From Schizochytrium sp. TIO01 (Eukaryota; Sar; Bigyra; Thraustochytrida; Thraustochytriidae), in assembly GCA_004764695.1 (NCBI GenBank), contig SMSO01000031.1, forward strand, positions 3,953,048 to 4,017,047: a stretch of DNA of 64,000 nt, written 5' to 3'. Below are positions 21,762 through 38,628 of this stretch, piece by piece. A model generated the notes under the pieces. It had not been told where the DNA came from. It worked only from the letters and a program-made list of their open reading frames with translations, and searched no databases. The position numbers were made by a program, and so were the translations under genes. Numbering within the stretch: position 1 is the first letter of the stretch; the number at the start of each line of letters is the position of its first letter.

Positions 21762-24700
21762 ATGTCCACATCGTCAGAAAATGCCAGTGGTGAAGGCCTT
21801 GTGCCTGGATGTGAAATTTGTACTCGTGATGATTTAATCGATCGACAATTTCACTATAAACCAACAATGTTCTTTGAGAATACCACAATTTTGCCCTGGC
21901 AAACGTCACAAAACATCCGGTAGAGGAGCTCGATGGCCTCTTGAGAGTGGTGTGATTGGTAGTCAGCAATCTGCAAAGATATGCCTTCGAGGTGACGAAA
22001 TCTCACCAGAGCATGCTGCAATTACTTGGGATGGGGACTCAGACACATTTTATTTAGAGTCGCTCCACGAAAGGGAGTCATATTTGCTCCTGAGTTGCGC
22101 TAGAGCATGTCGCGAGGCAATTAAACTCAAAGATGGTGATGCTTTTTTACTTTCTTATTGTAATGGACAATCATCAACCCGGCTTAATGACCTCTACTCA
22201 AGAGCAACATCATTTACGAGGCTGAGCACTAAAACTGATTTAAACTCTTCGAATAAATCAGCATCAGCAGAACAACTTCCTGGAAAGGCGCCTACCTCAA
22301 GTGGTGTGGACCCCGCTCACTATATTCGTATTCGCGTGCGTATAGTACAAAGCAATAAACAGGGAGATCACCGTGCACCACTCGTTCGGAAGCTTTCTAA
22401 ACGAAGAACGTATACAATGCTGCGTGCAGGGGATAGCCCCTCCCTTCCAAGTCTGACTATGCAAAAAGCTGGTGATCTCCACCTTGAGGAGCTTTTGCAA
22501 GGCTTTCAGCAGGCCGCACAAGCTTATCAGCCGGATTCTGCAGGTTCTTTGCTTACAAATGAGCAGGCAGATATTGTAAAGAAGGAACATAAGGGTCACC
22601 ATGTCGCATTCGCCAAACATATTGAAGGTGAAGTTACGGAAACAACAAAGGACCTTGCTCAAGATATGTCAAGGCTTCAGCGTAATCTTTTTGGTGGCTC
22701 TAGTGTTATCGAAGACGAGGCACTTCTAGATGCTGTTTGGTGTGATACAGATATAACATCAGAGCAAATGCGACTTGCTGAAGCTGCCACTAGTCGGGTC
22801 GGTGTACAAATAAATCTGGACCTGAGCAAGATTCTGAAGAGAAGGAATCAAATACCTTTGAGGATCTCCTTTCTTCCGGTGCTGCTCAAGCTCAGCACGA
22901 ACTTGATTCTTTATTTAATTGTCGTATTGAGCTTGAAATCGAAAATGGTCCAGAGGGATACAAAGGCCAAAAGTTTTCTTTTGGAGTTCATGATATTTCG
23001 ATGGGCTCACATCGAATGAATGATGTTCATATTGATGGATTAGCAAACTTTCATGCTCGTATAGAACGGGACAAAGACAACCAGTATTGGCTGAGGGATC
23101 TCGCAGGTGGACGCACCCTATCTACACTACTGGTGCTTCGAAATGAACGGAAAGTTCCGATTTTACCTGATGATATTTTTCGGTTTGGGACACACCAGGA
23201 AATCACAGCTCGGACGACTACTGAAAGTATGGGGGCAGCTAATGAGATTTGGGACGCTATTGCGGTATGTGTTTCTAAAACCAGGAAATCTCTAAGATAT
23301 CGTCAGTTGGATGATGATAGTGGTGAACCATCTATTCCTGCCTTCTTCGTAATGACGTCAAGCGTTGAAGACATTGTTATTGGCCGAAAGGTGTTAGAGT
23401 GCGACATAGCTGTTAAAGACTACGAGATGCCTCCTTTTGCAGCTACAATCTCAGCCTACGAACGCAATTTCTATGTAAGTGCAATGCCGGAGAGTCGAAA
23501 GAAAGGCGTTTTCATTGAGCTGAGTCGCCGTGAAAATGATCCACATGGATTCAATGGTAAAGCCAAGAATCCTCTAGGTAGACTTCATCCTCTTAACAAA
23601 GGAGACACGTTTAAAATTGGTCGCTCGCAGCTCACAGTGGCTGCCAAAAAGGTTGAACACTCTGACGCTATAAATCGAAGACATAGTGAGACATTTAAGG
23701 CATTGAGACGTGTTAACTTATTCAAAGGACTTCTCGATGACGAGCTTCGGCAATTGGCATCAGCTGTTTGTATAATCAAATTCAAAGAGGGGGATGTAAT
23801 TATTCGGCAAGGAAGCAAAGTTACTGGAATGTTTGTCGTAGCAGAGGGTTTAGCTCATGTCTTTCATGAGAACTCGCCAGACAAAATACTAAACAAAGTT
23901 TCAGTCGATAACGTACTCGGTGAAATGGCTCTCTTTGCAAATGCACCTGCTACGGCATCTGTGCGCGCCTCAGGAGATATGACGTGTCTCTATATTGACT
24001 TTTATCTGGCAAAGGCAGTTATCCACCCGTCTAACTTTGAGGTAATTAAAACATTAGTGGATCATCGACGTACCCAAGCCCATGTCCACGATCTGCAAAA
24101 TGTTCCAGAACTGCAGGATCTTGATAACTCTAAGCTTCTTATGCTATCAAGACGTTTGTTTCGAGTAGTTATTAATAGCCCTTCTCAGCTCTTTAATATC
24201 GGAGATGAACATGAATGCATGTACATTGTAAGCGTCGGAAAACTTTACATATCAACCTCCCCCGAATCTAACCGGCGTCAGCGCTCGTTTAAACCGCTGT
24301 CACGACGGAACTCATATGTCCCAGTTCCGGGTGGAGGACACATCTTTGAAAAAATGTTACAAAACGCACTTAATGAACCAAGAAAACCATTTAAATCTCC
24401 TTATTCTGTGGCAACAAATGAGGAGGTTGTTCTGTTTGGTTTACATCGTGATGATTATGTCAGTGTTATGAAAATGGACGAAGCCAAAATTAGGGAGGAG
24501 TTGGAGACATCTCGGGTTAAAATCAATGATCTCTTGCCAGAGCATTTTGCTTCGGACCGTATACTTTCTGCCAGACACCTAATAACCCCAATTTCATCTC
24601 CACAAACACGAACAGCTCCAGTTGACATAACGGCGCAATCTAAAGGCTCCGTGACAGACACCGGCTCTGTGCTCTCAAATCGCCCAAGCACTGACTCTTT

Positions 24701-25529
24701 TAAATTTTCCCCCATTCAAAAGAGTACAAAGTCGAAATCAGTGGCAGCTTCTCTTCGAATTTCTCCAGATGATCTAGTCACTATGGGGGGCTCTGAGCGT
24801 CTTCGGCTTGGTCGTCGAAACTTATCAACATCCAAGAGCCAAAGTGTCGATGAGGGCTCTGAAGGCGATACTCTTGCATACCTTGAACGGCTCGTCTCTG
24901 GGAACACTATTTCAAGCGAACCTGACTCTTTACATTCGAATGCAACAATGGACATAGATAATGATGATGGTGACACCATTTCATTAGCTTCGACTGAAAC
25001 AGCGGAAATGTCCGATCTTGAAAGTGCAGAAATTTTGACGGATGATGAGACCTTCGATATGGAGCTTTTTTCAAAACGAACAGAGCTCGAAACTCGGCTA
25101 CATGGCATGTCTCTGGGACAAATTGAGAATGAGCTTGCTAATGAGCCGTTCTATTTAATTCTAAAGTGTATTGCAGGACCTCAAAAGCGACAGCTGTTCA
25201 TTCTCACATCCTCTGTGACTATCATCGGTCGGTGGACATCTACGAGTCGTGATGAGGAGTTGTCCGACCCGCTCCCTGGTCGGCGCGTAATTTCTCTCAA
25301 TGACCGTACTGTGAGTCGAGTGAACTCTATTGTCCAGTACCGAAATGGAGATTTCTTCTTGCATGATGTAGAAAGTAAGTATGGTACTCATATTAAACTC
25401 AAGGCAAATGAGGACCTTAAACTTGAAATCGGGGATATTATCTCTTGTTCTCAACATGAGTTTAAGATATATGCACGAGCGAGGGTGAACTTGTCGGCAC
25501 AAAAGTCTGCATGTTGTTCGATATCATAG
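21762..25529 (+). CDS. multi-FHA, double cyclic-nucleotide-binding-like signalling protein (frame interrupted)
   Basis: In order, the product shows FHA-like module 1 (about nt 21930-22170), FHA-like 2 (22920-23215), FHA-like 3 (23350-23640), a CNB domain (23720-24060), a second degenerate CNB-like region (24110-24470), a Ser-rich linker and FHA 4 (25150-25480). FHA 4 is the most canonical (IIGR, VSRVNS, SKYGTH, GDII). Modules 1 and 2 have GS in place of GR and lack the Ser-Arg of the phosphothreonine pocket. CNB 1 has GEMALFANAPATASV, in which the phosphate-contacting Arg of the usual PRAA position is Ala. The reading frame changes twice. The ATG at 21762 opens one frame, which must move by +1 before about 21925 (a short intron or an indel). 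It returns to the original frame near 22794-22830, where no convincing intron exists. FHA domains bind phosphothreonine and CNB domains bind cAMP/cGMP; a scaffold or sensor role is inferred. Confidence 0.75.
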
Positions 25530-36187: not shown

Positions 36188-38628
36188 ATGGTGTCCCCGT
36201 CGGCCTGCGCGACACTGCGAGTGACAGGTGAGTACTGCAGGGTTAGAGCTTCGGTTGAATGAGGTGCCGAGAGAACGATGAAATGGACACAGATTCAGTC
36301 ATTTCGTTTCGAACGATGAGAGAGAAGAGAGAGCTAGCTTCCTTTCGGCTTGCAAACTCAAGTTGCTCGATCTGTTTGTTGCCTTGCTTCAAGCAGAGCT
36401 TGCTTGATTTCGGGTAGATTTCATGATGTTCTTGATTTCTATTTAGCAGCCTGAGGGCCGAGCAGGACGATCAGCCTTTTCAGCTTATTCGTAGGAAAGG
36501 CTTGTGTTTTTTGTGTGTCTTGAAAAAAAATGAAAAATGGTGTCTTGATTTTCGAGTTGTTAAACCTTGAACACGAGAAGCATCATTTTAGGTCTTTGGA
36601 GTGAGTATGGTTCTACGAGTATGCGCGTGGTGCAGCGTGTGCGGGAAGAATGGCGTGGAAGCAAGCACACTCTTCTCTTTCTGACTAGCAGACTCAGGAC
36701 AACCTAATGTGTGTGCATTCGTGTGCGGAATAGTGATTAAGCATTTGGTAGTGTCGAGTTGGGGTGAAATTGGCATGCACATGCACGAATGAGAGCATAG
36801 AAAAACTGACAAAGTACGGTACGTGCTGATGTGTTTTGTTATCGTGACTGGTCTTCCCTCGCTCCCAAATGGAGTTGGTTTCTTGTGTACTCGTGGCGCA
36901 CTACGACATTGGTATCTGATGGCTACATCGATGCCGTGAATTCACTCACCTGTGAAATGTTTAGCGAAACGAGCGGAAAACCTCAAGAATTTGCAGACAA
37001 TAATCGATCAAGATCCCTTTGTGAGACTAACAATTCTTCCGTGGGGGGATTCGGAGGAAACCAAGGCTGCTAGTGGTACTGATCCAGAATGGAAGGCCAA
37101 ACACCGACCAGTAATCGAACTTCCATACCCGGGACGGCCTGTTCCACCTGAAAAGGCAGAGCTCCTAGTAGAAGTCTACGACGCAGAGGTAACTCGAGCA
37201 GACCGTATTATTGGCAGTGCCACCGTTGACCTTGCGGACGAATTGCGTAAATCTGCTCTCGAAGAGCCACACGAGATTTCTTTGGAGCTCTCAGACCCCA
37301 AAGGGAAAAGCGCCGGCACCGTATATCTTGACTTCGAAGTCATCATGCGCGGTACATTTGATGTCACGGTTAACTCGGGTCACAACCTAAAAAATATCCA
37401 TACTGTTATGGATCAGAACCCATACGTACGTATTACCTTCCTACCTGTTGCTGAAGGCGCAGAAAAACAGGTGTTCTCCACCAAGTCGGCCAGTGGCGCT
37501 AATCCGGTTTGGACCAAGAAGAATGTCCTTACATTTGAGTACGATGGAGAGGAAAAGCCTCGTCTTCTTGTTGAGGTCTTCGATGACGAGCTCTTTCAGA
37601 AGGATCGCCTTGTTGGCACGGCCGCGGTTGATCTTATCAAACGCGTCCTCAATAACGGCCCGGGTTCACGCGAGGTGAAAAAGGAGCTCATAGTTGAGCT
37701 TGTCGATGAGGAGTTTGTTTCTGCAGGTAGGCTTGACCTAACCGTACACTTTGTTAACGAGGCCTGGGATGACTCCAAGCCAATTCTCCGCGCTCTCTCG
37801 TCCAAGGAGCTCCATGTTGCGGATCTCAACGCTATGAGTGGGTCTGAAATTTGGGATGAGCTACGCCGTGTTTTTTTTCAAATTGAGAGCGAAGTAAGTT
37901 GCACGTTTTCATGTAAGAGTATAAGAAAGAGGAAGAGAGTCGAAGAGAATTCTGGAAATGGTACATTGCTTAAGCTTTATGCATTCACAACATGTATTTT
38001 CCGTTTCTTATTTGCAATGCGAATTTCGAAGGTTTGATGAAATAAACGCTTTTACTAACAGTCATTCGGGCAAAAATTTCTCTGTAGCTGGAAAACTCTG
38101 CGCCAGGATTCTTGAACGAGTTTGTAAGGCCCGGTCTCTCTTTAAGTGGGCTCTTTGCAATCATGTGGCTCTTTCTGGGCATGGCTGGCATGTATATCTT
38201 CATCAAACACGGTGCCAAGCTCTTGAGCCTTTGCGTAGGTGTACTTTATCCTTGCTATGCTTCTTTCAAAGCTATCGAAACCGAAGGCAAGGACGATGAC
38301 ACCCAGTGGCTTACTTACTGGATGATTTTTGGGACAAGTATGATTCTCGAAGAGACGGCCCTTAAAGGTCCCAGCAATGCTTCAACCTGGTCTTTTTTTT
38401 ATTTGCAAGATGGCCTTTCTTATTTGGCTCGCCTCACCAAAGTATCAAGGCGCTGCGTTTTTATACAAGCGGTTCGTTGCCCCTCTTTTGCGGAAATATG
38501 AAAGCCACATTGATAAGCGTATCAAGTCAGCTAGGCGCGCTGTAAAGGAGATCGACGAGCGCGTGCGTCTTGAACCTTCCGCTGTGCACAGCGATGATAG
38601 TGACGCAAGCGATGACGAAGACCATTGA
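36188..38628 (+). CDS. C2-C2-REEP/HVA22 membrane protein (three exons, one frame break)
   Basis: Exons: 36188-36227, 36965-37893 and 38088-38628. Exon 1 (ATG, ending TLRVT plus one base) joins exon 2 to give ATLRVTAKRAENLKNLQTII. This aligns residue for residue with the start of the second C2 domain (GTFDVTVNSGHNLKNIHTVM), which supports the splice. C2A spans about residues 10-138 and C2B about 143-275. The putative Ca2+-loop acidic residues are only partly kept (DQDPF and YDAEV in C2A, DQNPY and FDDE in C2B). Exon 3 encodes a hydrophobic segment (LFAIMWLFLGMAGMYIFI) and then the TB2/DP1/HVA22 signature (VLYPCYASFKAIETEG, WLTYWMIFG, and after the break FLIWLASPKYQGAAFLY and FVAPLL). REEP/HVA22 proteins shape tubular ER, and C2 domains bind membranes. 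An ER-shaping or contact-site role is inferred. The frame shifts by one at an eight-T run (38393-38400), where one T fewer restores the family pattern. Confidence 0.85.
36228..36964 (+). other. first intron of the C2-C2-REEP gene
   Basis: This 737-base intron has a GTGAGT donor and a TTTAG acceptor and interrupts a codon after its first base. The spliced product restores the missing first strand of C2A, which matches C2B. Confidence 0.82.
37894..38087 (+). other. second intron of the C2-C2-REEP gene
   Basis: This 194-base phase-0 intron has a GTAAGT donor and a TTTCTCTGTAG acceptor. It separates the C2 part from the REEP part. Without it the frame runs into a non-REEP sequence and stops. Confidence 0.88.

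Follow-up and report, generated by a model that had tools for sequence, protein, structure and literature searches.

A single plus-strand gene in the window (the whole stretch of 64,000 nucleotides analysed, positions 3953048–4017047 of contig 30) is tentatively read as encoding an ER-membrane protein, in which a REEP hairpin anchor is combined with a calcium-independent pair of C2 domains for a tethering function similar to that of MCTPs. We assign this reading a rough probability of 0.47. The domain search of the protein spliced from three exons revealed two C2 domains followed by a REEP domain (PF03134), all encoded on the same strand, which bears out the arrangement proposed in the first-pass annotation. 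The ER location, the topology and the tethering are what we infer for the gene product from the protein families involved.

The three exons are separated by GT-AG introns, whose splice sites were read directly in the sequence. Exon 1 (36188..36227) contains the start codon and the first strand of the first C2 domain, C2-1 (MVSPSACATLRVT); the ATG at 36188 is the only one in its open frame. Intron 1 (36228..36964) has a length of 737 nt and the boundaries 36227/GTGAGT...TTTAG/36965. Exon 2 (36965..37893) covers the remainder of C2-1, the whole of C2-2, a linker, and the greater part of an amphipathic helix, and exons 1 and 2 together encode 323 residues after splicing. The much shorter intron 2 (37894..38087, 194 nt; 37893/GTAAGT...TACTAAC...TCTGTAG/38088) includes the sequence TACTAAC, which we take to be branch-site-like. 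Exon 3 (38088..38628) encodes the REEP hairpin domain, a C-terminal amphipathic helix, and an acidic tail, and it includes a change of frame. The start codon at 36188 and the stop codon at 38626–38628 had been assigned correctly before. Exon 3 had also been described as one open frame, which did not hold: the two halves of PF03134 are located in different frames, a break that had gone unreported. As written, the spliced frame stops at 460 residues and does not read the second PF03134 half, which lies in another frame. The predicted structures (mean pLDDT 37.3 and 52.3) were of too poor quality to be used for fold comparison, and a PDB search with the first frame of exon 3 yielded no match.

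Both C2 domains exceeded the Pfam cut-off for PF00168 (22 bits). The part of C2-1 encoded by exon 2 (36967..37257, plus strand) reached 35.4 bits on its own in the scan of the genome (approximately 64 Mb), and the whole domain including exon 1 reached 41.4 bits when scanned singly (E 1.7e-10, residues 9–111). Since this match starts in exon 1 and spans the exon 1/2 junction, it ties the two exons together. C2-2 (37351..37650, plus strand) scored 50.4 bits scanned singly (E 2.8e-13) and 50.2 bits in the genome scan. The two domains share 39% identity over 132 aligned positions (BLASTP, 1e-27) and carry net charges of −8 (C2-1) and −4 (C2-2).

In the proposed mechanism, the C-terminal REEP5/Yop1-type hairpin and the flanking amphipathic helix would insert into the ER and, judging from the family, the anchor would probably favor curved ER. 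The tandem C2 pair is expected to face the cytosol, where it may bind a second surface, either a membrane or a partner protein, and this binding would need no calcium. C2 domains positioned on tubular ER could in this way hold the ER against another membrane as in MCTPs, with REEP as the anchor. The tether reading is weakened by the net charges of the C2 domains, because an acidic pair does not favor calcium-free binding to anionic membranes. The strongest alternative, although itself unlikely, is that the C2 pair acts at the ER as a scaffold for binding proteins, such as the giant multi-C2 proteins of this genome, with no second membrane being bridged. It agrees with the acidity of the domains and their shortage of calcium ligands, and among the other C2 sequences of the genome, those matching this protein best lie in multi-C2 ORFs (contigs 6 and 5), one of them with an IQ motif. 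However, lipid binding cannot be judged by net charge alone, and the partner would be purely hypothetical.

The REEP domain of the proposed tether was detected in two pieces. The first half of PF03134 (38250..38360, plus strand, model positions 1–37) lies in the frame of 38088 and scored 44.7 bits in the genome scan; the second half (38392..38487, plus strand, model positions 46–77) lies in the frame of 38344 and scored 32 bits, or 32.6 bits in another scan. Both are above the Pfam cut-off of 27.2 bits. The frame shifts by one step somewhere within 38361..38400. Read across the break with a four-letter code, the domain gave a full match to the 77 model positions with 78.0 bits, and three other placements of the break, all covering the 77 positions, gave 76.8, 81.1, and 82.5 bits. 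Across 117 positions, the REEP part shares 43% identity with the ordinary REEP protein of this genome, labeled REEP5-type here by analogy with the human sequence, and across 100 positions it shares 39% identity with a second REEP gene (locus L031). Hairpin 1 is well defined, as is the end of hairpin 2, and the first half of hairpin 2 remains under the hydropathy cut used; the stretch of hairpin 2 is unusually hydrophilic when read in the first frame, which speaks against the proposed reading. The second hairpin is divergent and partly resembles the paralogue in locus L031. The membrane part is preceded by an amphipathic helix with a hydrophobic moment of 0.58 (residues 309–326; 37849..37893, plus strand, with the last three residues in exon 3) and followed by another with a hydrophobic moment of 0.62 (38515..38568, plus strand, KRIKSARRAVKEIDERVR). 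A C-terminal amphipathic helix has a role in Yop1.

No convincing intron separates the two PF03134 halves. For exon 3, 139 GT/GC-AG combinations of at least 21 nt (donors 38200–38479, acceptors no further than 38559) would lead to the proper C-terminus. Two of these, of 37 and 52 nt, were chosen for retaining most of the REEP domain and were scored; as ordinary short introns, they gave 65.6 and 64.6 bits versus 76.8–82.5 bits for the domain read across. A tiny intron defined by a 7-nt motif, which is present at this break and at one break in locus L033, was also rejected as a general rule: 8 of the 31 copies counted on both strands of 174 kb are read through, that is, they are located inside same-strand ORFs of at least 350 residues. 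Coding statistics gave no position for the frame change. A run of eight T as the sole cause was dropped because its placement has the lowest score among those read across (76.8 vs. 78.0, 81.1, and 82.5 bits).

A small assembly error is, as a first guess, the most likely origin of the interruption. The second frame of exon 3 remains open and REEP-like down to the acidic C-terminus, which is unlike old decay. Frame changes were surveyed in 174 kb, comprising the window plus eleven 10-kb loci that were picked for their REEP or C2 genes and are thus a non-random sample, and the scan returned three same-strand pairs of coding-like ORFs overlapping in different frames. At L038:5540-5710, inspection by eye indicated that two multi-C2 ORFs are connected through a one-step forward change where a C2 domain ends; the 10 GT-AG joins of at least 30 nt at this site, also judged by eye, have poor donors and would remove the end of the C2 domain. 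This comparable change renders an assembly error somewhat likelier than a lesion peculiar to the C2-C2-REEP gene. The pairs at about 22.8 kb of the window and in locus L035 shift in the direction opposite to the break in exon 3. The former consists of long coding-like ORFs (21838–23016 and 22794–25526) on the same strand that overlap by 223 nt in different frames, due to either an intron or a frame error. On the minus strand of locus L033 (4590–7135), neighboring ORFs of different frames each contain a REEP-type domain (29.5 and 55.5 bits). Two forward changes were recognized there by eye, the locus being absent from the list of the scan; GT-AG joins of at least 30 nt are available at both breaks (10 and 9), so that each break may be a frame change or an ordinary intron. 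No Pfam match was obtained for the ORF preceding the first break. The change in L038 and both candidate changes in L033 have the same direction as that in exon 3.

Next in plausibility, and likewise unlikely, is a recently broken gene, in which the frame change is real and a protein of at most 460 residues lacking the second REEP half is made. The frame interruption is truly present in the assembly, and a second copy was not detected in the genome, the next best REEP match being 54% identical over one stretch. Yet no further lesion was seen and the frames on either side are open and REEP-like, and the comparable change in the multi-C2 gene of L038 in the same assembly hints at a technical cause.

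The assignment of all three exons to one gene, as claimed earlier, is supported at the level of the gene model by consensus splice sites, ordered domains, and features crossing the junctions. One gene is favored because the splice phases of exons 2 and 3 match, the open frame of exon 3 starts no earlier than the acceptor, with no ATG upstream of the first membrane segment, and the amphipathic helix extends over the junction of exons 2 and 3. Two adjacent genes, one for a soluble protein with both C2 domains and the other for a REEP protein, are improbable: reading of exon 2 could continue into the short intron 2 up to a stop at 38035–38037, but the consensus splice sites with their matching phase and the lack of an early start codon in exon 3 contradict such a division.

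The first-pass annotation had suggested that the single protein might be regulated by calcium, which the C2 sequences do not support. Five places in loops 1 and 3, which we take to be the aspartate ligand positions of C2 domains, were compared. C2-2, aligned to PKC alpha, has H, N, D, E, and R at these places, and C2-1, via its alignment to C2-2, has Q, D, D, E, and R. Aspartate is thus present at two of the five places in C2-1 and at one of the five in C2-2, with one further glutamate in each. With most ligand aspartates missing and both domains net acidic, neither C2-1 nor C2-2 looks calcium-binding, and docking driven by calcium appears unlikely from the sequence. A Ca2+-regulated ER contact-site protein is accordingly quite improbable, although the C2 fold is present and a role as calcium sensors is described as possible for MCTP C2 domains (PMC5449185).

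Least credible is a genuine frame change that is read through by recoding, via a +1 slip or the removal of a very small piece of mRNA, which would give two products, a form of 460 residues whose hairpin is broken and the full C2-C2-REEP protein, and could be part of a wider habit of the genome, including the change in L038 and the two candidates in L033.

The combination of C2 and REEP domains appears to be confined to the studied gene among the REEP genes found. A profile scan of the genome located PF03134 at 11 places, which correspond to nine genes by count; the window and L033 hold two places each, and L031 is split by an ordinary-looking intron. PF00168 was found at no fewer than 86 places (at least 86 C2 places). 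Comparing the listed places by eye, C2 and REEP occur together in one of the nine REEP genes, that studied here; the others had no listed C2 match within 10 kb, the nearest being about 39 kb away. A probable MCTP is encoded on contig 33 (3174413–3176371), with three C2 places in one frame of 756 residues. Its PF08372 scores (25.6 and 23 bits in two scans) are below the cut-off of 28.1 bits, and the aspartates are kept in the two C2 domains inspected by eye. Huge multi-C2 ORFs are present at L037:3619-9999 and L038:2617-10000 (2127, 1017, and 1477 residues within the limits of the loci); one of them contains an IQ motif, and the C2 domains of these ORFs are the best C2 matches to the studied protein. 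A frame of 784 residues on contig 35 (L039:3654-6005, minus strand of the locus) comprises C2-type sequence followed by a caspase domain (Peptidase_C14), and this C2-metacaspase ORF points to several different fusion partners of C2 domains in this genome.

Fused relatives were not found in scans of bacterial/archaeal and viral contigs, which says little. The viral-contig matches L028–L030 were taken as chance because they are only 18 residues long and no REEP-like ORF covers the match at L028 (ORFs of at least 80 residues considered). An SMP profile search of the genome gave no match, a result that does not imply absence. The reticulon profile (PF02453) was above its cut-off at four places, on contigs 35, 30, 30, and 31 (loci L043, L044, and L045 and one more). 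Reticulons were most likely lost from stramenopiles according to PMC9804665; if the genome is that of a stramenopile, the four places fit poorly with the loss as reported there. The 5S rRNA was detected at 47 scattered places on many contigs, several of them near contig ends (47 of the 2196 candidates were scored).

Provided that the protein is made, a layout with C2 domains on a curvature-loving ER anchor would have evolved a second time, from REEP. The interchangeability of hairpin anchors in contact-site proteins and docking by C2 domains without the usual calcium ligands would then become testable.

The closest known systems are the MCTPs. Plant MCTPs are ER-PM tethers that insert into the ER via their C-terminal region and dock on the plasma membrane via their C2 domains (PMC6680132). 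MCTPs are further described as combining C2 domains with a reticulon-type C-terminal domain that shapes the ER, and the C-terminal domain of MCTP2 is reported to restore ER structure in yeast devoid of reticulons and Yop1 (PMC6063926). The idea of the fusion is not wholly new, since MCTPs already combine C2 domains with an ER-shaping domain; the "new kind" of protein announced in the first-pass annotation was overstated in this respect, whereas the REEP anchor does set it apart. Among the open-licence literature matches listed, titles and abstract openings describe no fusion of REEP/HVA22 and C2 domains.

The studied protein shares with MCTPs, as described in the work cited, N-terminal C2 domains and a C-terminal hairpin of the curvature type, predicted here to be ER-inserted. 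In contrast to MCTPs, it has two C2 domains instead of three or four, its anchor is PF03134 without a PF08372 match, and its calcium ligands are mostly missing. The genome encodes a separate, more canonical probable MCTP. REEP5, Yop1, and HVA22 resemble it in the full PF03134 match obtained when reading across the break, the C-terminal amphipathic helix, and the identity to the REEP5-type protein (43%), but differ from it in that, in the studied gene, the REEP domain is preceded by about 320 residues comprising the C2 domains and a linker, the frame is interrupted, and the second hairpin is divergent. Extended synaptotagmins and tricalbins also unite an ER anchor with C2 domains; however, the studied protein has no SMP match, and its C2 domains are located before rather than after the membrane part. 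The gene looks like an independent, REEP-based version of the MCTP layout, and its product is classed as a REEP-domain protein carrying a C2 pair, which probably works like an MCTP without being one.
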